DNA of 34,831 nt, from the IMG/VR virus record IMGVR_UViG_3300042305_000983, positions 1 through 34,831 of that record. One strand, written 5' to 3'. Below the pieces are notes generated by a model, which worked only from the letters and a program-made list of their open reading frames with translations, was not told the DNA's origin and did not search any database. Position numbers and translations under genes: made by a program. This DNA comes from a virus. Shown here one piece after another: positions 1,039-34,420 of the stretch (position 1 is its first letter; each line of letters opens with the position of its first letter).

Positions 1039-2565
1039 ATGAAATTTTATGATTTTTTGATACTAGAGAATGAGAAATTCAAACAAAAGTTTGATTCGAG
1101 AAGGTATCGTAAAATAGAAAGTATCGCTGAAAGATCTTTAGATCAAAATGATATAATTGAATTTTTGGGTGAAAATTTAGATTCACTATACGGTGATGAA
1201 CAGTTATTTGAATTAAAGGATTTGATTGTTAATTTCAAACAAGTAAAAGAATTTTTGGATAAGAAGTCTTTGAAGGAGTATAGTTCTTCAGAAGAATTGA
1301 AACAAGCATTGAATAATTTAAAGAAAGATATGTTAAATTTGAATACATCTGCTGATGTAATTAAAGTTTACGAAGATGAAAATTATGTTTTGGTTTATCC
1401 TGAAAACTTTACCTCCGCTAAATTATATGGGGGTCTGATCAATAATCCATATTCTGTTTCCAAAGATGAAATTAAGTATTTGAAAGAAAAATTATATGGT
1501 GTCACTTTCTATTTAATACCCAAAAATGGTAGTGAATTTACTTACAAAATAACATATAAATTTGGAGGTGAGTTTATGATATTCGACAAAGGGGGTACAA
1601 GAATCGGAATAAATCGAATTGATAGATCTATTTTACAAAAATGTAGAGACTTTGTTTACGAAAAATTCAAAAAAATAGTTAATATCTTTGAAGATGATTA
1701 TTTGAAAGAAAAATATATTGCTCTTAATTTGGAAGGTATTGAACAAAAAGCTAAACAAAATCAAGACAAACTTAGACAAGAGGACGCTTGGTTTGGAACC
1801 GATATTGGAAACAGAGCAAAGGCGGCTTTCGAATATTCTAAGGATTATCGTAATGCTGGTTTTGAAGAATTACGTGATATTTACGACTTATATTGGGACG
1901 GTTATGCTGAGTTCAGTACAGAACCTGAAGGGGAGGGTGCGGTCTTCAGAGTTTTAAACCAAGAAGAAGCGGACAACGAATCACAACAATATTGGGAAAG
2001 TTATGTTGATGATGTTGATCCGACAGAGGCATTTAGTCGAATTTATTTAAATCATTTTCTCGATGAAGAAAAAATCAAAGAATATTTTTGGTCACTTATG
2101 GAGGACCAAATCAAAGATGATCTCGAATCGTATTTCGAAGTTGAAGAATTACCCATCAATTCATACGACCAAAGAAAAATTGATAGGTTAAAAAGTGAAA
2201 AAGATTCCCTTCAACAGGAAATAGATAATGAAGAGATGAGTGATGAGGACATTAAAAGTCATCAAGAAAGAATAGATGAAATTGATTTGGAAATTGAAGA
2301 GATAGAAGAAAATGCTGAAAGGGAACCAACCAGTGATCAAATCGAAGAAAAAATCGATGAAGAATGGTATAATGTATCGAGGAGTGATTTGATAGATTGG
2401 ATTGAGGAGATAGGGTTGGATTTAGGGGATTTTCTAGATACTGAAGCGTTAATCAAAAATTTAATAAGTGACGGTGAATATGGTTCATCATTATCTACAT
2501 ATGATGGTGATTACAACTATTATAATATGGACGGAAAGGATTATTATGCTTTTAGAATTTCATGA
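1039..2565 (+). CDS. 508-aa acidic phage protein related to its downstream neighbour
   Basis: First gene of an operon running to 5195. The N-terminus (MKFYDFLILENEKFKQKF) is a short charged leader containing I-L-E, similar to leaders on other proteins in this window. Residues ~105-190 (YEDENYVLVYPENF...GVTFYLIPKNG...FMIFDKGG) align by eye with the region of the next gene that carries the GANTKWCT motif, but that motif is absent here, so this looks like a degenerate paralogue. Residues ~385-445 are a very acidic, probably coiled-coil stretch (SEKDSLQQEIDNEEMSDEDI). There is no signal peptide or membrane segment. Function unknown; packaging in the virion is possible but only inferred. It overlaps the next gene by ATGA. 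Confidence 0.85.
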   Translation: MKFYDFLILENEKFKQKFDSRRYRKIESIAERSLDQNDIIEFLGENLDSLYGDEQLFELKDLIVNFKQVKEFLDKKSLKEYSSSEELKQALNNLKKDMLNLNTSADVIKVYEDENYVLVYPENFTSAKLYGGLINNPYSVSKDEIKYLKEKLYGVTFYLIPKNGSEFTYKITYKFGGEFMIFDKGGTRIGINRIDRSILQKCRDFVYEKFKKIVNIFEDDYLKEKYIALNLEGIEQKAKQNQDKLRQEDAWFGTDIGNRAKAAFEYSKDYRNAGFEELRDIYDLYWDGYAEFSTEPEGEGAVFRVLNQEEADNESQQYWESYVDDVDPTEAFSRIYLNHFLDEEKIKEYFWSLMEDQIKDDLESYFEVEELPINSYDQRKIDRLKSEKDSLQQEIDNEEMSDEDIKSHQERIDEIDLEIEEIEENAEREPTSDQIEEKIDEEWYNVSRSDLIDWIEEIGLDLGDFLDTEALIKNLISDGEYGSSLSTYDGDYNYYNMDGKDYYAFRIS

Positions 2566-3551
2566 CAAAAAATACACTCATTAAAGAAGGAAGGAGAGAA
2601 GATATACTCACCAAAGACCCTGAACAATTCAGAGTACCTTCTGAACAAGAAGTAGATACTCCTTTTCATAAAAAAACAAATTATAAATACTTAAATTGGG
2701 TCTTCGACCAGTATAACAAAAACGAAGATTATTCATTCGAAGAATTATCCAATATAGTGGAGAGGTTCGATAAGATAAGTAAAAACCTGACCAAAAAAGA
2801 CATCAACCAATACAAGGATCTTGATGAACTTTTGAATATCTTCAAATTCTACGGATCGACCAAAGAAGAAAAAAAGTCGGGAAAAAAAGTATTACTTGAC
2901 ACGGATGATTTTTTGGTTATTCGACCACTCACCCGTGAAGCATCATGTTATTATGGAGCCAACACCAAATGGTGTACCTCTGCAACTGCGGAGGGTAAGA
3001 ACAAATTCGAACAGTATGCTTCCACTGGAAAGTTATATTATATCATATCAAGAAAACCTTTGGATATGAAAAATTGGAATAAGGTGGCGATATATGTAGA
3101 TGATTATTATGGTGGTGAAGTCTTCTATGATAATTTGGATGTCACCATGAACAAACAACAATCAGAAGACTATCTGTCAATTTTATCTTCAGATGTAATT
3201 GAATCCATAAGAAATGATTATTCAAGCGATGAAAATCAGGATAAATGGAGAAACCTAAAAAATGTTTTATACAATTATCCATATGTAAAATTTAAATCCA
3301 ACGGTCATGTAATTGGAATGTGGGGTGAAAATGATAAGTTGAATTTTATAATTGATGATGATGAGTTTTTTGGGATTGTGGATGGAAATAAAGTTGTTTT
3401 TTATTCACAGGACAAACCTATTGTTGAAGAAATAAAAATTGATGATTTTTTGAGATCGGCCGTTTACCGAAATGTAGGAATTCCATTTAAGAATTTGGTT
3501 TATTTATCTTTTGTAAATTTTCTTGTATCTTTTATAAAGAAAATCTATTAG
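2562..3551 (+). CDS. Phage protein with GANTKWCT motif
   Basis: The ATG overlaps the previous stop (ATGA). The N-terminus MTKNTLIKEGRREDILTKDP contains I-K-E/G, matching the prohead-protease-like leader pattern seen elsewhere here. The core, residues ~110-205, reads LLDTDDFLVIRPLTREASCYYGANTKWCTSA and continues into alternating strands (KLYYIISRKP, KVAIYVDDYYGGEVFYD). I recognise the YGA(N/G)TKWCT signature as recurring in uncharacterised proteins of large phages, but I know no function for it. The conserved Cys, Trp and Lys could be an active site; this is a guess. It is probably co-transcribed with the related gene upstream. Confidence 0.85.
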   Translation: MTKNTLIKEGRREDILTKDPEQFRVPSEQEVDTPFHKKTNYKYLNWVFDQYNKNEDYSFEELSNIVERFDKISKNLTKKDINQYKDLDELLNIFKFYGSTKEEKKSGKKVLLDTDDFLVIRPLTREASCYYGANTKWCTSATAEGKNKFEQYASTGKLYYIISRKPLDMKNWNKVAIYVDDYYGGEVFYDNLDVTMNKQQSEDYLSILSSDVIESIRNDYSSDENQDKWRNLKNVLYNYPYVKFKSNGHVIGMWGENDKLNFIIDDDEFFGIVDGNKVVFYSQDKPIVEEIKIDDFLRSAVYRNVGIPFKNLVYLSFVNFLVSFIKKIY

Positions 3552-6146: not shown

Positions 6147-6662
6147 ATGAAATTAGTTACAAGTCTCAAAGACCTCGTTTTAGAATTTTTTGGAAGGACC
6201 CTTTATCTTCCAAAGATCAAAAAGGGAGGTAAGGTAATTGAATTTGGAGTTTCACTCGAGCAGATGAAAGATCGAAGTGGTGAAGACGATCCAAACGACC
6301 CTGCGGTTATGAAAATGATCCATAGAAGACTTGATGTTGGTTGGAGAACTGGTGTTCCAAATATATGGATATGGGAGTCGGTCAAGAAAAATTTCGATGT
6401 TGTCTTCCAAACCATAGATGATCTTTATGATCCTGACATCGAAAGAAACAGAGTTTTATTTTTGGCACCACACGATTTATTAGATCAGATAGAATTTGTT
6501 ACAGAAATTGAGGCTTATGATAAAGACACAATGGCACTCAAAGTAATCACTTCAGGGGTTGGATCACCAAATCGTGGATTCTTCAGGAACAAACAAAAGA
6601 CACCGACCATAAGTTTGACCGAAAGTTACAAAAAAATTCCTACGATTGTTTTGGAAAATTGA
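6147..6662 (+). CDS. Hypothetical phage protein, 171 aa
   Basis: Starts MKLVTSLKDLVLEFFGRTLY. The N-terminal helix SLKDLVLEFF is leader-like but is not followed by a clear cleavage pattern. The rest is a mixed alpha/beta protein with the conserved-looking segments RRLDVGWRTGVPNIWIW and ITSGVGSPNRGFFRNKQKTP. It is not recognised as any enzyme. It ends immediately before a promoter driving the small RNA at 6685. Confidence 0.75.
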   Translation: MKLVTSLKDLVLEFFGRTLYLPKIKKGGKVIEFGVSLEQMKDRSGEDDPNDPAVMKMIHRRLDVGWRTGVPNIWIWESVKKNFDVVFQTIDDLYDPDIERNRVLFLAPHDLLDQIEFVTEIEAYDKDTMALKVITSGVGSPNRGFFRNKQKTPTISLTESYKKIPTIVLEN

Positions 6663-17626: not shown

Positions 17627-17986
17627 ATGGGAAGAATTACAACAGACGAAAATGAAAAACAAAGAATTTTGAATCTTCATTTGGAAGCAACCAAAAGACA
17701 TTATTTGAAAGAACAAAGTTCAATGGAGGAGGCAAATATGAAAAAAGCGGTTCAATGTTTTTTGAATAAGGTGGGATATAAAGTGAAGGTGGATGGTATG
17801 TGGGGGGATGAATCCAAAAAAGTTTTGAGTCAGTTTCAAGTGAAAAAAGGAATTAATGACGACGGATTTTGGGGTACTGAAACCTTCAATTCACTGACAC
17901 CACAAGAGAAGGAGTTATATAAAAAATGTAAAAGTGAACACGGAGATTTGTTTGATAAAATAATAAGTTTTGTTGGTTTAGATTGA
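17627..17986 (+). CDS. Peptidoglycan-binding protein with virion-type leader
   Basis: 119 residues. The N-terminus MGRITTDENEKQRILNLHLE and following ATKRHYLKEQSS is a charged leader containing L-K-E/Q. From residue ~38 there is a peptidoglycan-binding type 1 domain: KAVQCFLNKVGYKVKVDGMW, G-D-E-S-K-K-V-L-S-Q-F-Q, and a second repeat DDGFWGTETFNSL. There is no Sec signal, so access to the wall would require the phage's lysis machinery or delivery with the virion. Next to a lysozyme gene it may be a separate cell-wall-binding subunit. The end overlaps the lysozyme start (TGATG). Confidence 0.88.
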   Translation: MGRITTDENEKQRILNLHLEATKRHYLKEQSSMEEANMKKAVQCFLNKVGYKVKVDGMWGDESKKVLSQFQVKKGINDDGFWGTETFNSLTPQEKELYKKCKSEHGDLFDKIISFVGLD

Positions 17987-18681
17987 TGAAATTTCAAATT
18001 AACGAATCCGAGAAAAAAAGGATCAAGGATCTTTATCAAATCAACGAACAAGGTATGAGAGGATACCTTTTAAGGATGTTGAGTGATGATGAACCTCAGA
18101 GTTATTCTAAAACCGTCCCGTCTTCCAGTAATGTATTCCCCTATGATGTACTGAATAGATTTGGGTTGGGTTCAAAAGAATCGTTGGACTTTAACTCAGC
18201 GCCAATACCTCGTTTGAACAACATTATTAACCATATTAAAAAGTATGAAGAATTTGTTCCTTACACATATGACGATGCTTATTATCCACCAAAAAAAGTT
18301 CAACCGGGAAAATCATGTAAAGGACGTTGCACCATAGGTTATGGAACAACCGATCCTGCCAAAGCTAAACCTGGCGCTACCGTAAGTGAATCAGTTGCAT
18401 CATCTTGGTTGACTGATTTTGTTGAGGACGAATGTGTACCCTGTATTAAGAGGTGGCAGAAAGATACCAAAACCAAAGTCACACCATCCATATTTGAAGC
18501 TTTGATTGATGTTGTTTATAACAAAGGATGTAGTGGATTTAGAAAATCACCCATAGCTACAGAACTTGAAAATAACAATGTTGTAAGGGCGGCTGAGGTA
18601 TTAAAAAACTGGGAGGGATGGGGAAATAAAAACAGACGAGAAGCAGTCTATATCAACTTCTTCAAAAAAGGAATAAAATGA
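17986..18681 (+). CDS. GH24-type lysozyme (endolysin-like) with virion-type leader
   Basis: The ATG at 17986 (231 residues) overlaps the preceding stop. The leader MKFQINESEKKRIKDLYQIN ends in I-N-E/Q and resembles that of the preceding protein (E-K-x-R-I-x-x-L). The catalytic domain starts near residue 70: IINHIKKYEEFVPYTYDDAY holds the family Glu and Asp, then CTIGYGTTDPAKAKPG with the T-I-G-Y-G core, and SIFEALIDVVYNKGC and NRREAVYINFF near the end. It hydrolyses the glycan of peptidoglycan. With an N-terminal leader rather than a signal peptide it may be a virion-associated lysozyme used at entry, although a classical endolysin is possible. Confidence 0.9.
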   Translation: MKFQINESEKKRIKDLYQINEQGMRGYLLRMLSDDEPQSYSKTVPSSSNVFPYDVLNRFGLGSKESLDFNSAPIPRLNNIINHIKKYEEFVPYTYDDAYYPPKKVQPGKSCKGRCTIGYGTTDPAKAKPGATVSESVASSWLTDFVEDECVPCIKRWQKDTKTKVTPSIFEALIDVVYNKGCSGFRKSPIATELENNNVVRAAEVLKNWEGWGNKNRREAVYINFFKKGIK

Positions 18682-20084
18682 AAAAAGTAATTAACGAGGG
18701 TGGTATCAGAGATATAAATGCATTATCCAAAAGATATCCGAAAGCAAAGATATATTTTCACCAAGATTTGGATGGTGTAACTTCTGCGTTGGGTATGAAG
18801 GAATATTTGGAATCAAATGGTATAAAGGTCGTTGATGCTGAAATCATTCAATATGGTGATAAAGAGTTCTCGATCAAGAAGTTGGAGGCTGAGGGTGATA
18901 TTATGCCGGTTTTAGTTGATTTTGCTCACGGAAAACCGATGTTCAAAATTCATACAGACCACCACGACAGACAAGCCGGAGCGGAGGACACCAAATCCAA
19001 ATCATTCAGATCTGCAAGATCAAATATTGAAACAATATCACAAGTTCTGTCACCCAAAGATATATTTCCATCTGACGACATAAAGTTAATCTCCACCGTT
19101 GATTCTGCCAACTTCAAACCATACGGAATTAAACCCCGTGATGTTATGAATTACATCCTTAAATTAGATAAGGAGGGAACTTTGGAAAAGAACAAGATGG
19201 CTCTTGGGTTGTTGACCAACAAACTTCTTTTGGCGTATAAAAACAAACCAAACTTTATGGAGGAATTGGTTATGACTTCTTCACCTTCTTTGATGAATAT
19301 CTATCAGAACATCAAAAAAATTGCAAAGGAAAGAAGGTTTGCTTCACCCGAAGAAATGGCTCAAAACCAAGAAACATATATCAAATCTCAAAAAGAATCA
19401 CCCAACGTCGTTTTTGAAGATGGAATCATAAAACAATATGGTGGCGGTTCATTATTCAAACCAGGTTCTTATGACAGATATACACCATTTGAAAACTATC
19501 CCGATGCAAATTTCTTAATTATTGCTTGGCCTTTGGGATTGGTTCAGGCAAGTTGTAATCCATTTAAAGAAGACAGAGCTCTCAAAGGTATTGACTTGGG
19601 TGAAATTAAAGATGAGATCCTCGAAGAAAACAAGGGTTGGATGAAAAAGGAAATGGTTCCTCTCTCAACTCTAAAATGGATCTCTGAAACATCTGTTGGT
19701 CCCGAAAGTGTTGGTTTTACATCTTCGGACTTAAAAGCGTTTTATATGGACAAAGTTCAAGCGGGGAATGAAGAATATCTTTCAAGATTGGATCAAATCA
19801 TGGATAAGAAGTTCTCTGAACTAAATGAAGATGAACTTACAATATTAGATAGTTTTGCAATTCCATTTTATGACTTGGTGGTGGAAAACTCTGGAGGTCA
19901 CAAATGTATAACTAATCTTTCAGGTCTGAATTATTTGAGAAGATCCAAGAGACCACCACAAGGTGATTATAAAAGAGAGCCAGGGACGGAAGCCAAGTTC
20001 GTTCAAGGGGTGAAATTCTTTCAAGATCAGTTCTTTGAAAAACTGAAAGGTAGAATTCAAGGGGTTGAGACGGAATCGGAATAA
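18678..20084 (+). CDS. DHH-family phosphoesterase with virion-type leader
   Basis: 468 residues. It begins MKKVINEGGIRDINALSKRY, with I-N-E/G as in a T4-type prohead protease site. DHH superfamily motifs follow: AKIYFHQDLDGVTSALGMKE (motif I, D-x-D-G), VLVDFAHG (II), KIHTDHHDRQ (III, the DHH signature) and ISTVDSANF (IV). The family includes RecJ exonuclease, NrnA nanoRNase/pAp phosphatase and c-di-AMP phosphodiesterases; the large middle and C-terminal part does not let me choose. A capsid-delivered phosphodiesterase could degrade nanoRNA or cyclic-nucleotide defence signals; this is speculation. ATGA junction with lysozyme; its 3' end overlaps the convergent DUF192 gene by 28 nt. Confidence 0.85.
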   Translation: MKKVINEGGIRDINALSKRYPKAKIYFHQDLDGVTSALGMKEYLESNGIKVVDAEIIQYGDKEFSIKKLEAEGDIMPVLVDFAHGKPMFKIHTDHHDRQAGAEDTKSKSFRSARSNIETISQVLSPKDIFPSDDIKLISTVDSANFKPYGIKPRDVMNYILKLDKEGTLEKNKMALGLLTNKLLLAYKNKPNFMEELVMTSSPSLMNIYQNIKKIAKERRFASPEEMAQNQETYIKSQKESPNVVFEDGIIKQYGGGSLFKPGSYDRYTPFENYPDANFLIIAWPLGLVQASCNPFKEDRALKGIDLGEIKDEILEENKGWMKKEMVPLSTLKWISETSVGPESVGFTSSDLKAFYMDKVQAGNEEYLSRLDQIMDKKFSELNEDELTILDSFAIPFYDLVVENSGGHKCITNLSGLNYLRRSKRPPQGDYKREPGTEAKFVQGVKFFQDQFFEKLKGRIQGVETESE

Positions 20085-20425
20085 ATGACAAAAGGATCAC
20101 CTTCTTTAATATTGTGATCCTGACAATAACCACCCGGTAGTTCCAAGACGATATTTCCAACTCCTGTGTATGATTCACATTGATCAGAATTACAGGGGGG
20201 ACAATCGTGATGTATTTTATTTACAACGTTATTTTTGATGAAAATTATATCCAATGGAATGATACAATTTTTCATCCAAAAACTATGAGATTTTCCATTC
20301 ATCAGGAATACCATTGAATCAAAACCTTCAAATGTTTTATCCATCATACCATTCTCAATTTGATCTGGTGTTGCACAAATCTTTGAGTTTAGTATATTAT
20401 TTTTTATTTTGGTTTTTACAATCAT
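20057..20425 (-). CDS. DUF192 family protein
   Basis: 122 residues: FEGFDSMVFLMNGKSHSFWM, KNCIIPLDIIFIKNN, IHHDCPPCNSDQCESY, and VLELPGGYCQDHNIKEGD. This is the DUF192 pattern (a small beta-barrel family found in bacteria, archaea and many large phages, function unknown). The extra Cys cluster C-P-P-C-x4-C is a feature of phage-type members as I recall them. There is no signal peptide, whereas many bacterial DUF192 proteins have one. Convergent overlap with the DHH gene; 6 nt downstream of the LRR gene on the same strand, so the two may be co-transcribed. Confidence 0.88.
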   Translation of the reverse strand: MIVKTKIKNNILNSKICATPDQIENGMMDKTFEGFDSMVFLMNGKSHSFWMKNCIIPLDIIFIKNNVVNKIHHDCPPCNSDQCESYTGVGNIVLELPGGYCQDHNIKEGDPFVIYSDSVSTP

Positions 20426-20431
20426 AACTTT

Positions 20432-20977
20432 TTAATTACGTCTAAAAATAAACCTACCAACATTTATCATACTTCTAATTTCTTCATTTGTATATTTTTC
20501 TGATAGGTATTCGTTCAAATGCAAACTACCACCAACAGATTTGAGATTTTCAAGGGTTTTAATTTTTGTTTCTCTCACATCCAAACTACTACCAACAGAT
20601 TGAAGTTTTGGAAGGGATTTGATTTGTGTTCCTCTCAAACTTAAATAACCAACAACCGATTGAAGATTATCAAGGGATTCGATTGGAGTTCCTTTCAATT
20701 CCAAATTACCACCAACCGATTGAAGATTTCCAAGAAATTTAATTTCTGTCCTTTCCAAATCTAAAAAACCCGTAATGGAAACAAGTCCTTCAAGCCAAGT
20801 TAAACCACCATCATACCCGCCCAAACTTAAATTATCATCCAACGACCATCTTTTGATGTTCTTTTTTTGGATGAAATTTTTCAATCCTCCGATTCTATCA
20901 GGGAAATAATTAAGACCGGGTATAAACAATACCTCTTCGGTTTCCTCTTTCAATATTTGCTTAATAAGTGATCTCAT
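20432..20977 (-). CDS. LRR protein, three central 20-residue repeats
   Basis: The start at 20977 (MRSLIKQILKEETEEVLFIP) is chosen by comparison with four paralogues at 32233-34389; a TTG at 20983 would add two residues. The parts are: leader with I-L-K-E/E, a conserved cap (GLKNFIQKKNIKRWSLDDNL), a first LRR-like unit (LTWLEGLVSITGFLDL...), three full 20-residue units of the type LxNLQSVGGxLxLxGTxIxS, and a final cap ending NEEIRSMINVG. It is a solenoid of the leucine-rich type, probably for binding a protein or glycan. It is the only copy away from the tandem cluster and is followed by DUF192 on the same strand. Virion packaging is inferred from the leader. Confidence 0.85.
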   Translation of the reverse strand: MRSLIKQILKEETEEVLFIPGLNYFPDRIGGLKNFIQKKNIKRWSLDDNLSLGGYDGGLTWLEGLVSITGFLDLERTEIKFLGNLQSVGGNLELKGTPIESLDNLQSVVGYLSLRGTQIKSLPKLQSVGSSLDVRETKIKTLENLKSVGGSLHLNEYLSEKYTNEEIRSMINVGRFIFRRN

Positions 20978-21047
20978 TTCCAATAAATACCCAACTCTTG
21001 ATTAATTGAATTTATATTGTTAGGTTTAAGGACAGAACTTTTTAATT

Positions 21048-22137: not shown

Positions 22138-22442
22138 AGACGATAAGTAAAGAAACCCTTAATAAAGTATGGATCATCACCAAGAGAATTATCAACTATA
22201 TCTTTCTTTTGATCGTTCTCGGAACAGGATTTTACATCGGAAAAACCTATGTGGAATACATCCCTGAAGAGAAAAACAACCAACCTATCACTTTGGATAA
22301 TGTATCCATCGCCGTTGACGAGAAGAACCATATATTTATAATAGATAAACATACAGGAGAATACCAAGTATTTTCCGACTCCGTTGGCATCACAATCTTC
22401 AAGATGTATGCCGGTAAAATCTATAACTCACAACCGAAGTAA
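22134..22442 (+). CDS. Single-span membrane protein, 102 aa
   Basis: The N-terminal 20 residues are basic (MKTISKETLNKVWIITKRII), followed by a membrane span (NYIFLLIVLGTGFYIG) and a soluble C-terminal domain of strands (ITLDNVSIAVDEKNHIFIID). The topology is probably N-in/C-out. It sits in an ATGA/TAATG-coupled set with a membrane-anchored transglycosylase, so it may be a partner or spanin-like accessory; it has no lipobox. Function not established. Confidence 0.78.
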   Translation: MKTISKETLNKVWIITKRIINYIFLLIVLGTGFYIGKTYVEYIPEEKNNQPITLDNVSIAVDEKNHIFIIDKHTGEYQVFSDSVGITIFKMYAGKIYNSQPK

Positions 22443-22963
22443 TGTATAAAGTAAAATTCGTCACCGTCACCATCATATTTTTTATCGCTTATGTGATATA
22501 CAAAAATCAATCACAACAAGAAGATATAACCCCAACCTATGTGGAGACGGGAACGGTTTTACCTACCAATGAACCCCCCTGTATTCAGATGTATTATTAT
22601 ATAGAACAATATTCCAAACAATACAATATACCAAGAAAATATGCATATGGAATTGCTTACAAAGAAACTGGATACAGGGGACCCTTTCATTGGAAATACA
22701 ATCACAAACAAGTGAGTTACGCAGGTGCGATGGGTCCGATGCAGATCATGCCCTCCACCGCAAAAAGTGTAAACGGATATTATGTATCCAACGAAAAACT
22801 TACCTCCGATATTAAATTCAATGTCGAAACTTCAATGAAGTTGTTACAAAAGTTGAAAAACAAATATGGGAGTTGGGAAGTTGCTTTTGGTGTTTATAAC
22901 ACCGGCCGTCCGATGGTAAATCAGTACGCCATGGATGTATATCGGTTTGAACCGAATTGGTAA
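22442..22963 (+). CDS. Membrane-anchored lytic transglycosylase (SLT domain)
   Basis: 173 residues. An N-terminal hydrophobic anchor (KFVTVTIIFFIAYVIYKN) is followed by a linker and an SLT domain from ~55: YGIAYKETGYRG carries the catalytic Glu, then YAGAMGPMQIMPSTAKSVNG (the G-x-M-Q-I-M-P core), DIKFNVETSMKLLQKL and WEVAFGVYNTG. It cleaves the glycan strand of peptidoglycan with formation of the anhydro end. The anchor implies action from the periplasmic side of the inner membrane. It forms a third wall-active gene in this window. TAATG overlap with the gene upstream. Confidence 0.9.
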   Translation: MYKVKFVTVTIIFFIAYVIYKNQSQQEDITPTYVETGTVLPTNEPPCIQMYYYIEQYSKQYNIPRKYAYGIAYKETGYRGPFHWKYNHKQVSYAGAMGPMQIMPSTAKSVNGYYVSNEKLTSDIKFNVETSMKLLQKLKNKYGSWEVAFGVYNTGRPMVNQYAMDVYRFEPNW

Positions 22964-25654: not shown

Positions 25655-25966
25655 ATGGCAAAATTCGTTATTACCCAAAAACAACTCGATCATATAGTTG
25701 AAAATGTTAAGAAAGATAAGTTGAATGAAGATTCAGATGGTAATTACATGGCGAAACAGCAATTGTTTGTTATTGCAACCATGGCTTATAAGATGTGGGA
25801 GATGTTGGACGACAACGCACAACTTGAGGATTGGATGGAAAGTAAAATCGCTCAGTGTGAACAAAGTGTAAGTTCTGTAGTTAAGGCATATTTGTATGAC
25901 GAATTTGATGCCGAATTAAAGGGAATGGACACCTTGAGTTATGATGATTTGGTAATTGGAAAATAA
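25655..25966 (+). CDS. Phage protein with virion-type leader, 103 aa
   Basis: Begins MAKFVITQKQLDHIVENVKK, D-K-L-N-E/D-S: a charged leader with L-N-E, comparable to those on the lysozyme and peptidoglycan-binding proteins. The mature part is helical (LFVIATMAYKMWEMLDDNAQ, DWMESKIAQCEQSVSSVVKA, Y-L-Y-D-E). I have the impression of a recurring family in large Bacteroidota phages with this L-x-D-W-x-x-x-K-I-x-x-x-x-x-S-V-S-S-V core, but no function is known. It is a monocistronic unit between TATTTATA and a terminator, which suits an abundant internal virion protein. Confidence 0.8.
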   Translation: MAKFVITQKQLDHIVENVKKDKLNEDSDGNYMAKQQLFVIATMAYKMWEMLDDNAQLEDWMESKIAQCEQSVSSVVKAYLYDEFDAELKGMDTLSYDDLVIGK

Positions 25967-32232: not shown

Positions 32233-32832
32233 TCATAGTCTAACAATAAAACCACCAACATCCACCGTACTTTTTATTTCTTCATTTGTTTTTGTTGATA
32301 AATAACTGTTCAAATAAAGTCTTGAACCAACAGATTTAAGATTTCCAAAGGATTCAATTTGTGTTCCTCTTATGTCCAAATAACCACCTACATATTGAAG
32401 ATTTCCAAGGGATTTAATTGGTGTTTTATTTAAATCCAAAGATGCTCCAACAGCCCTGAGATTTCCAAGGGATTCAATTGGAGTTTCTTCCAAATTCAAA
32501 TAATCATCAACATATTGAAGATTTCCAAGAGATTCAATTTGTGAGTTGTATAGGTTCAAATAACCATCAACCGATATAAGATTTTTGAAGGATTTGATTT
32601 CTGTTCCATACGCATCAAAATCACCACTAATAGAAACAAGACCCTCAAGCCAAGTTAAATCACCTTTATAACCACCCAAATTCAACTTACTATCCAACGA
32701 CCATCTTGTGATGTTATTTTTTTTGATGAAGTTTTTTAGTCCTTCAACTCCATCAGCGAAATAGTGAAGACCAGGTATTACAAATATCTCTTCGGTTTCC
32801 TCTTTTAATATTTTTTTGATTAGGTCTTTCAT
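32233..32832 (-). CDS. LRR protein, four central 20-residue repeats
   Basis: Last gene of a four-gene LRR operon, 199 residues. Leader MKDLIKKILKEETEEIFVIP, cap with GLKNFIKKNNITRWSLDSKL, first unit (LTWLEGLVSISGDFDAYGTE...), then four full 20-residue units: FKNLISVDGYLNLYNSQIES, LGNLQYVDDYLNLEETPIES, LGNLRAVGASLDLNKTPIKS and LGNLQYVGGYLDIRGTQIES, and an end cap with NEEIKSTVDVGG. Its repeats are the most diverged of the five. It shares its start A with the stop of the preceding gene (TAATG). Function unknown; a binding solenoid is inferred. Confidence 0.85.
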   Translation of the reverse strand: MKDLIKKILKEETEEIFVIPGLHYFADGVEGLKNFIKKNNITRWSLDSKLNLGGYKGDLTWLEGLVSISGDFDAYGTEIKSFKNLISVDGYLNLYNSQIESLGNLQYVDDYLNLEETPIESLGNLRAVGASLDLNKTPIKSLGNLQYVGGYLDIRGTQIESFGNLKSVGSRLYLNSYLSTKTNEEIKSTVDVGGFIVRL

Positions 32833-33491
32833 TATCTAATAATTCTACCACCAACATTTATCATACCTCTAATTTCTTCATCTGTATAATTCTTCAAAAC
32901 ATATTTGTTTAACCACAAATTAGTACCAACATATTCGAGTTTTGGAAGGGATTCAATTTGTGTTCCTCTTATATCTAAATAATCACCAACCGACTGAAGA
33001 TTTGGAAGGTCTTTAATTGGTGTTCCCTCCAAATCCAAACTACCACCAACCGATTGAAGGTTTCCAAGGTCTTTAATTTGTGTTTTTCTTAAATCCAACC
33101 CACCACCAACCGATTGAAGTTTTGGAAGGGATTCAATTTCTGTTCCTCTTAAATGTAAAAAACTACCAACCGATTGAAGATTTGGAAGGGATTTAATTTG
33201 TGTGCTTCTTATATCTAAATAACCACCAACAGATTGAAGATTTCCAAGAAATTTAATTTCTGTCCTTTCCAAATCCAAAAAACCCGTGATCGAAACAAGT
33301 CCTTCAATCCAAGTTAAATCATCTCCATATTCACGGAAATCCACATCATCATCCAACGACCATCTTTTGATGTTCTTTTTTTGAATGAAGTTTTTTAATC
33401 CGTAAATTTCATCAGGAAAAAAACTAAGACTAGGTATTACAAATACCTCTTCGGTTTCTTCTTTTAATATTTTTTTGATTAAGTCTTTCAT
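32832..33491 (-). CDS. LRR protein, five central 20-residue repeats
   Basis: 219 residues, the longest of the five. Leader MKDLIKKILKEETEEVFVIP, cap GLKNFIQKKNIKRWSLDDDV, first unit (LTWIEGLVSITGFLDLERTE), five full units alternating LGNL/LPNL/LPKL starts (for example LPNLQSVGSFLHLRGTEIES, LGNLQSVGGSLDLEGTPIKD) and an end cap DEEIRGMINVGG. The first unit matches that of the unlinked copy at 20432 almost exactly, showing exchange or recent duplication between the two loci. It overlaps the previous gene by ATGA and the next by TAATG. Confidence 0.87.
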   Translation of the reverse strand: MKDLIKKILKEETEEVFVIPSLSFFPDEIYGLKNFIQKKNIKRWSLDDDVDFREYGDDLTWIEGLVSITGFLDLERTEIKFLGNLQSVGGYLDIRSTQIKSLPNLQSVGSFLHLRGTEIESLPKLQSVGGGLDLRKTQIKDLGNLQSVGGSLDLEGTPIKDLPNLQSVGDYLDIRGTQIESLPKLEYVGTNLWLNKYVLKNYTDEEIRGMINVGGRIIR

Positions 33492-33970
33492 GGTCTAATA
33501 ATATCACCATCAACATTTATCATGCTTCTAATTTCTTCATTTGTATATTTTTCTGAAAGGAATTTGTTTAACCACAAATTTCCACCAACCGATTGAAGAT
33601 TTCCAAAGGATTTAATTTGTGTTCCTCCTAATAGTAAAAACATACCAACCGATTGGAGATTATCAAGGGATTTAATTTGTGTGTTTCTTATATCTAAATA
33701 ACCACCAACCGATTGAAGATTATCAAGGGATTTAATTTTTTTTCCTTCCAAATCCAAATAACCACTAATGGAAACAAGACCTTCAAGCCAAGTTAAATCA
33801 CCTTCATATTGACTCAAATACAAATTATCATCCAACGACCATCTTGTGATGTTCTTTTTTTCAATGAAGTTTTTCAGACCTTCAATTCCATCAGGGAAAA
33901 AAGAAAGACTTGGTATTACCAATACCTCTTCAGTTTCCTCTCTTAATATTTTCTTAATCAGGTCTTTCAT
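33488..33970 (-). CDS. LRR protein, two central 20-residue repeats
   Basis: 160 residues. Leader MKDLIKKILREETEEVLVIP (Arg replaces Lys within the I-L-x-E core), cap GLKNFIEKKNITRWSLDDNL, first unit (LTWLEGLVSISGYLDLEGKK), two full units LDNLQSVGGYLDIRNTQIKS and LDNLQSVGMFLLLGGTQIKS, and an end cap (FGNLQSVGGNLWLNKFLSEK) with NEEIRSMINVDG. It starts and ends in ATGA overlaps with its neighbours, so translation is coupled through the cluster. Confidence 0.87.
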   Translation of the reverse strand: MKDLIKKILREETEEVLVIPSLSFFPDGIEGLKNFIEKKNITRWSLDDNLYLSQYEGDLTWLEGLVSISGYLDLEGKKIKSLDNLQSVGGYLDIRNTQIKSLDNLQSVGMFLLLGGTQIKSFGNLQSVGGNLWLNKFLSEKYTNEEIRSMINVDGDIIRP

Positions 33971-34389
33971 GGTCTAATAATATCACCATCAACATTTATC
34001 ATGCTTCTAATTTCTTCATCTGTATATTTCTCTGAAAAGTATTCGTTTAAAAATAAATTTCCACCAACCGATTGAAGATTTCCAAAGGATTTAATTTGTG
34101 TTCCTTTTATATCTAAATAACCATCAACCGATTGAAGATTGTCAAGGGATTTAATTTTTGTTCCGAACAAATCCAAATTACCACTAATGGAAACAAGACC
34201 CTCAATCCAAGTTAAATTATCTTCATATCGACTCAAATACAAATTATCATCCAACGACCATCTTTTGATATTCTTTTTTTCAATGAAGTTTTTTAATCCC
34301 TTAATTCCGTCAGGGAAATAGTGAAGACCAGGTATTTCCAATACCTTCTCGGTTTCCTCTTTTAATATTTTTTTGATTAGGTCTTTCAT
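33967..34389 (-). CDS. LRR protein, one central 20-residue repeat
   Basis: First gene of the operon, 140 residues from the ATG at 34389. An in-frame TTG at 34410 would add seven residues, but the four paralogues all start at this Met (MKDLIKKILKEETEKVLEIP). Cap GLKNFIEKKNIKRWSLDDNL, first unit (LTWIEGLVSISGNLDLFGTK), a single full unit LDNLQSVDGYLDIKGTQIKS, and the end cap. It represents the minimal form of the family. A TATTTATA element lies 7 nt upstream on the same strand. Confidence 0.85.
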   Translation of the reverse strand: MKDLIKKILKEETEKVLEIPGLHYFPDGIKGLKNFIEKKNIKRWSLDDNLYLSRYEDNLTWIEGLVSISGNLDLFGTKIKSLDNLQSVDGYLDIKGTQIKSFGNLQSVGGNLFLNEYFSEKYTDEEIRSMINVDGDIIRP

Positions 34390-34396
34390 ATAATGA

Positions 34397-34404
34397 TATA
34401 AATA
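34397..34404 (-). promoter_or_regulatory. TATTTATA element upstream of the LRR operon
   Basis: TATTTATA on the minus strand, 7 nt before the ATG at 34389. The spacing is shorter than at other genes, so the message would have almost no leader. Confidence 0.45.
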
Positions 34405-34420
34405 CTTCAAAATTGTTTTG

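Follow-up and report, generated by a model that had tools for sequence, protein, structure and literature searches.

Why should proteins of unrelated folds in one viral genome begin with the same kind of short charged segment ending in [I/L]-x-E? The question is raised by the window, the whole stretch of 34,831 nucleotides that was analysed, which is a 34.8-kb IMG/VR fragment in which head genes are absent and for which a preliminary description had proposed leaders like those of the T4 internal proteins. The T4 capsid-targeting leader (CTS) is carried by IPI, IPII, IPIII and Alt and is cut by the prohead protease gp21. In its sequence, MKTYQEFIAE, targeting depends on residues 4 and 7 and cleavage on residues 8 and 10 (PMC9026906). 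Our answer, drawn from sequence comparison and given a probability of roughly 0.78, is that the shared N-termini would be T4-type capsid-targeting propeptides cut by an S77 protease, and that the proteins behind them would be packaged and injected. We infer docking, cleavage, packaging and injection in the following form. The leader would be an amphipathic capsid-targeting propeptide of the T4 type, ending in [ILVF]-x-E, which docks its protein onto the prohead's scaffold core; an S77 protease of the gp21 type, encoded by the same phage, would cut after the E and remove the leader along with the scaffold and the propeptide of the capsid protein; and the mature protein would stay in the DNA-filled head and enter the host with the DNA.

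All leaders quoted in the preliminary description were found in the window sequence, and they are given below together with one weak candidate (the slash marks the predicted cut).

17627 to 17713, + strand: leader of the peptidoglycan-binding protein (PGB), MGRITTDENEKQRILNLHLEATKRHYLKE/Q; gene 17627-17986, PG_binding_1 E=4e-9
17986 to 18048, + strand: lysozyme leader, MKFQINESEKKRIKDLYQINE/Q; gene 17983-18681, Phage_lysozyme E=4e-14
18678 to 18698, + strand: leader of the DHH-family phosphoesterase, MKKVINE/G; gene 18678-20084, from orthologues, model and DHH fold
25655 to 25729, + strand: leader of the 103-aa protein, MAKFVITQKQLDHIVENVKKDKLNE/D; gene 25655-25966
1039 to 1068, + strand: leader of the 508-aa protein, MKFYDFLILE/N; gene 1039-2565, T4 spacing exact
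2562 to 2588, + strand: leader of the GANTKWCT protein, MTKNTLIKE/G; gene 2562-3551, 16-member family
20945 to 20977, - strand: LRR protein leader, MRSLIKQILKE/E; gene 20432-20983, T4-spacing match
32800 to 32832, - strand: LRR protein leader, MKDLIKKILKE/E; gene 32233-32832, T4-spacing match
33459 to 33491, - strand: LRR protein leader, MKDLIKKILKE/E; gene 32832-33491, T4-spacing match
33938 to 33970, - strand: LRR protein leader, MKDLIKKILRE/E; gene 33488-33970, T4-spacing match
34357 to 34389, - strand: LRR protein leader, MKDLIKKILKE/E; gene 33967-34410, ATG within the listed ORF
6147 to 6185, + strand: weak candidate leader of a 171-aa protein, MKLVTSLKDLVLE/F; T4-spacing regex only

The start of the lysozyme was taken as the ATG at 17986, one codon past the listed TTG, and its cut site is ambiguous because two [IL]xE sites are present, FQINE/S and YQINE/Q, as is the case in several leaders. 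The five LRR leaders share the pattern M(K/R)xLIK(K/Q)IL(K/R)E/E, and the type MKDLIKKILKE/E of the LRR protein at 32233-32832 is also present on non-LRR proteins in relatives. The spacing of T4 is exact in the leaders at 1039 and of the LRR proteins, whereas those of the PGB, lysozyme, 103-aa, 2562 and DHH proteins have [IL]xE at other spacing. The individual matches at 6147, 5789 and 12515 could be due to chance.

Two further observations belong to the window. The 508-aa (1039) and 329-aa (2562) proteins adjoin each other (1039-3551) and are diverged members of one family, which has 586 aa in most relatives, and the NTKWCT motif is kept only in the second of the two. A lytic-transglycosylase-like, membrane-anchored protein (22442-22963) without a leader adjoins the leader-bearing lysozyme locus.

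Relatives of the DHH gene (18678) were found on 80 viral contigs, which include G001 (152 kb, nearly identical to the window), G002 (317 kb) and G003 (270 kb), and also in the metagenomic megaphages W01 (LR745206, 635 kb) and W02 (LR756502, 642 kb) and, remotely, in W03 (LR756501, 735 kb). A search of 84,980 bacterial and archaeal genomes, at the sensitivity applied, gave no cellular homologue of the DHH protein.

Counting of the bare motif was rejected as a test for being too weak; near N-termini the frequency of [ILV]xE is just about double that in protein interiors, and the motif alone therefore proves little. T4 spacing was fixed from T4 itself, independently of the window, as Phi-x-x-Phi-[ILV]-x-E within the first 17 residues, and internal-Met starts were used as decoys. 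Of the 44 ORFs in the window, 9 had it, compared with 1 of 122 decoys (0.8%; p=2.7e-5), and the ratio was 5/40 against 1/121 when the LRR paralogues were collapsed to one (p=0.004). The likeness to T4 claimed in the preliminary description holds up, the spacing being more informative than the bare [I/L]-x-E. The spacing was enriched also in G001, G002, G003, W01, W02, W03 and the cultured Flavobacterium phage immuto, and ThyA, PEPCK, glutamine synthetase, PurA and other metabolic enzymes of the window gave no leader match. All leader-type regexes except T4 spacing were written post hoc, and the HMM tests were run on separate genomes.

Control genomes were analyzed in the same manner. In T4 itself the spacing was counted 5 times against 2.7 expected (p=0.2), and IPII and IPIII were nevertheless recovered; a profile trained on W02 ranked IPII first and IPIII second among 248 T4 genes. 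In SPN3US the spacing was not enriched (2 against 4.0 expected), the W02 profile gave 0 leader matches and the S77 profile PF03420 gave no match. Immuto encodes an S77 protease, its capsid protein contains the site QIVSE/A, and several of its proteins begin with leaders such as MENFDLKKFLVE/N, many of them encoded near head genes; 16 of its 175 families are leader-positive against 1.7 expected. Chance alone, given that [I/L]-x-E is frequent in Glu-rich proteins, would account for the low twofold excess of the bare motif and for the equal frequency of [ILV].E in the MS-negative and MS-positive proteins of phage PA5oct, but the decoy-controlled profile and spacing tests are positive in seven S77-bearing or related genomes and negative in SPN3US, which leaves chance almost no probability.

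PA5oct also encodes EST35_0205 (MKLFEVFTLYE/D; tblastn E=3e-13), a protein homologous to the 1039/2562 family and annotated as detected by ESI-MS/MS, and this detection fits carriage of the family in the virion. The family further showed fold similarity to a structural protein of PA5oct (E=2.5e-7). General leader enrichment was not found in PA5oct, where the T4-spacing motif is present in 2 of 90 MS-positive and 9 of 304 MS-negative proteins; this phage neither proves nor refutes the model because its head is only distantly related and cell-type enzymes are part of its MS set.

The orthologues reveal which part of the leader is conserved. In those of the DHH, PGB, lysozyme, 2562 and 103-aa proteins [ILV]xE is kept while the adjacent residues vary. 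Among 32 distinct DHH leaders P1 is E in 32/32, with nine residue types at P2, and P3 is I or L in the 30 window-clade members, the leaders of the two megaphages having been counted in a frame off by one (QFINE/E). E7 of the DHH protein is invariant among orthologues, and residues 1-11 are disordered in the structure model. The megaphage N-termini MISKYNQFINE and MLRKYGQFINE are almost T4 leaders and are followed by the same body, GLRNI or GFKNL in place of the GIRDI of the window. A PDB fold search placed the DHH protein at superfamily level only (best E 3e-3; PggH, RecJ and NrnA like). The PGB orthologues have either the window-type leader or IIRLTENDLTNLVKRVISE/Q, both types finishing in [VIL]xE/[QE]; the lysozyme orthologue leaders finish in ..GIQE/Q, and for the 103-aa protein the relative L013 has TITE/D at the matching position. 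In the 1039/2562 family, whose 16 members have 19-65% identity to the first, only M1, E9 and one Gly are invariant. A PDB fold search with the GANTKWCT family gave nothing significant, and a match of the 1039 protein to phrog_95 'integrase' (E=0.001) was dismissed as noise.

The leaders are far more numerous in the megaphages, where 155 of 827 proteins in W02 and 115 of 792 in W01 bear them (14-19% of proteins of at least 80 aa). The W02-trained N-terminal profile, at 10 bits or more, matched 108 of 723 W01 families against 2.5 expected, and among the W01 families that have no W02 homologue 54 of 335 were positive against 0.6 expected. With the leaders anchored on the E, each position as far as P1=E carries about 1 bit of conservation; the value is high at a Ser-rich P1' and then falls to 0.1-0.3 bit, and in an alignment of 76 megaphage leader proteins the sole real consensus is the N-terminal MKxLKxYxxF. 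The window clade has an excess of roughly 35-40 leader families per long contig. Its leaders show greater degeneracy and belong to several types, a point against the model.

Such shared N-termini may also arise by common descent, as one diverged family with a slowly evolving N-terminus, and about 100 of the 270 megaphage leader proteins (a 101-member group in the two megaphages) do form one diverged paralogue family under loose clustering, as do the five LRR paralogues of the window on a smaller scale. Iterative profile clustering of the bodies, however, leaves 84 families in W02 and 77 in W01, the folds behind the leaders differ (DHH, lysozyme, RNA ligase and SET), and PGB orthologues carry different leader types with conservation that ends at E, so that common descent is extremely improbable and the spread over unrelated folds that had been described from the window is upheld.

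Some paralogue groups deserve mention in their own right. About 100 small and very diverged proteins (..DIL.DL.D.GF..) are located at many loci of W01 and W02 behind the leader MKHLKxYKIFE/S. G003 has a 40-member, apparently LRR-like family that starts with MKKExLKRIFEFLEEKE (e.g. L078:13934-15473 and 19498-20974), in a style akin to that of the window's five LRR proteins.

The Pfam matches of the leader-positive W02 proteins include Acb1, T4 RNA ligase (Rnl1), lysozyme, DHH and LigT/2H, further SET, methyltransferases, HNH and NUDIX, and one oddity, a PQ-loop membrane protein that looks unlikely as cargo, whereas a length-matched leaderless W02 set, of metabolic or replicative character, holds tRNA synthetases, RNR, ThyA, NAD synthase, CoaE, SmpB and gp32. 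Acb1-like proteins with T4-like leaders are encoded at LR756502 473773-474312 (MIKKYLEFMKE/S) and LR745206 448257-449573 (MKLKKYKQFIKE/S), an assignment based on PF23474 at E ~1e-6 in W02 and ~1e-5, under the curated cut-off, in W01. One W02 lysozyme has a leader (MRYIKTFNE/D), and another, endolysin-like, begins at the domain. The Rnl1 proteins of W01 and W02 have an extension of about 20 residues relative to T4 Rnl1, and that of W03 has no leader, so the leader is an optional module; none is visible on the Rnl1 of G002 either.

The model calls for a protease and for matching sites in the head proteins. PF03420 had no match in the window, which is a fragment, and neither an S77 protease nor head genes were found in G001, its closest long relative. 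The profile matched G002, G003 and G004 at E ~1e-22, so that three long contigs with relatives of the window DHH protein encode a clear S77 protease, and W01-W03 gave weak matches. The W02 protease ORF is assigned to phrog_207, head maturation protease (E=6e-28). In the three megaphages the protease ORF runs into an array of [YF]xx[YF][ILV]xE sites of the YSEYIAE type, as follows.

LR745206 (W01), 198546 to 200669: protease-array ORF, 11 sites
LR756502 (W02), 225272 to 227371 (L140:5272-7368): protease-array ORF, 11 sites
LR756501 (W03), 73913 to 76336: protease-array ORF, 14 sites

Every other protein of W01 and W02 has at most 2 such sites, and the array site YSEYIAE may be compared with YQEFIAE of T4. 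This ORF is apparently a protease-scaffold fusion built of cleavage sites. The capsid-protein gene adjoins it, and FHQINE/N closes the putative propeptide of that protein; the capsid protein of G002 and G003 has a site like FLINE/A. In G002 and G003 an acidic gene in the scaffold position has EINQLVKESLSE/Q (G002) or EIEELVKESLNE/Q, which resembles local leaders such as LVKRVVKE/Q, and LVKESLSE/Q is another of the cleavage-motif sites of relatives. The scaffold assignment in these two contigs rests on position because PHROGs gave no match, and its likeness to the leaders rests on inspection of EINQLVKESLSEQ because the scaffold was not top-ranked in the interior scan of G002 and G003 with the leader profiles H1, H2 and H4.

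Besides these, W03 encodes a 1691-aa protein (LR756501 21458-26533) with seven repeats of the FVKY[LI]xE type, the same site pattern, and a second weak S77 match (LR756501 11386-11787, E=1e-5), possibly a diverged protease paralogue.

The leader may instead be an N-terminal tag of another kind, such as one that directs proteins to a compartment made by the phage, or it may act in translation or at the level of the mRNA. The leader genes are indeed many and on both strands, and leader codons are identical at 1.17x the expectation from codon usage, a small excess. The leaders nevertheless match the T4 CTS in residues and spacing, as well as the scaffold arrays and the propeptide sites of the major capsid protein in the same genomes, and they vary in amino-acid sequence around an unchanging P1=E, which is unexpected of an mRNA element; we consider this explanation very unlikely. 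As a test for recent copying of leaders, the codon comparison gave only that slight excess.

Another explanation accepts docking in the prohead core but takes the leader proteins for parts of the core or scaffold that are degraded or retained, and not for injected effectors. The leaders do look like scaffold segments, and a charged protein, G002_337 (at ~271.6 kb), G003_330 and G001_34, which ranked first in the interior scan with the H1 profile, has an N-terminal leader and 1-2 internal copies of a different leader type, LKLTENELIDLIEKLVVEQ, as a consumable core protein would; it is possibly a second core protein. Many leader proteins, on the other hand, have a single site at the extreme N-terminus followed by a complete enzyme domain (Acb1, Rnl1, DHH or lysozyme), which is the layout of the injected T4 internal proteins, and a role confined to the core is therefore unlikely for the set as a whole.

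The reading of the leaders as packaging and injection signals, which the preliminary description put forward and which finds partial support here, may now be applied to the cargo. Their T4-like working is well supported by unrelated folds, conservation ending at E, S77 in relatives, matching capsid and scaffold sites in the same genomes, and leader types swapped between orthologues. The predicted cargo of the window clade comprises two wall-active proteins, the DHH phosphoesterase, the GANTKWCT family and the LRR proteins, and that of the megaphages would include an Acb1-like anti-CBASS protein and a T4-type RNA ligase. As more than 100 tagged proteins, an anti-immunity enzyme among them, are present in the largest phages, a toolkit may be injected with the DNA. 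It is rather probable that the largest known phages pre-load dozens to more than 100 different proteins via one modular and swappable leader code, the reader of which is a protease-scaffold fusion that itself has 11-14 copies of the code, and that this arsenal includes anti-CBASS nucleases, RNA ligase, DHH phosphodiesterases, methyltransferases and wall hydrolases.

No report of leaders of this kind in metagenomic huge phages was found in the open-licence literature searched. If the reading is true, the tag would mark virion-borne proteins and a large share of the unknown huge-phage genes would become readable. Tagged proteins would act at time zero, ahead of any phage gene expression, and this would account for the way in which giant phages face host immunity on entry, Acb1 and RNA ligase being already inside the particle. 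Counter-defence effectors could be discovered by their leader tag, and the natural leader-cargo pairs could be used for protein delivery by phage heads.

Among known systems, the polyvalent and P1 Dar proteins are phage proteins for which packaging, and injection to counter host defences, have been predicted or demonstrated (PMC5512222); they are multidomain giants with internal peptidases, whereas here many small single-domain proteins have a common short leader. The SPN3US protease cuts A-x-E after Glu, and many proteins are packaged and ejected (PMC5694885). The inner-body and ejection proteins of phiKZ and SPN3US are similar in a protease that cuts after Glu and in the many proteins packaged, but they have an A/S-x-E motif, mostly long propeptides, no short common leader and a protease that PF03420 does not recognise, and head proteolysis of this type does not fit the [ILVF]xE sites and PF03420 matches in the present phages. 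The T4 CTS is matched in leader length, in the hydrophobic 4/7/8 and E10 spacing and in the [IL]xE site, and the relatives have an S77 protease with matching sites in scaffold and capsid protein. Unlike T4, where such proteins number only a handful, the megaphages encode 115-155, the leader types differ between clades, and the megaphage protease is fused to a CTS-like repeat array. The leader system is best read as a much-enlarged packaging of the T4 type, in which clade-specific leader codes would be mirrored in the scaffold and capsid-protein sites.
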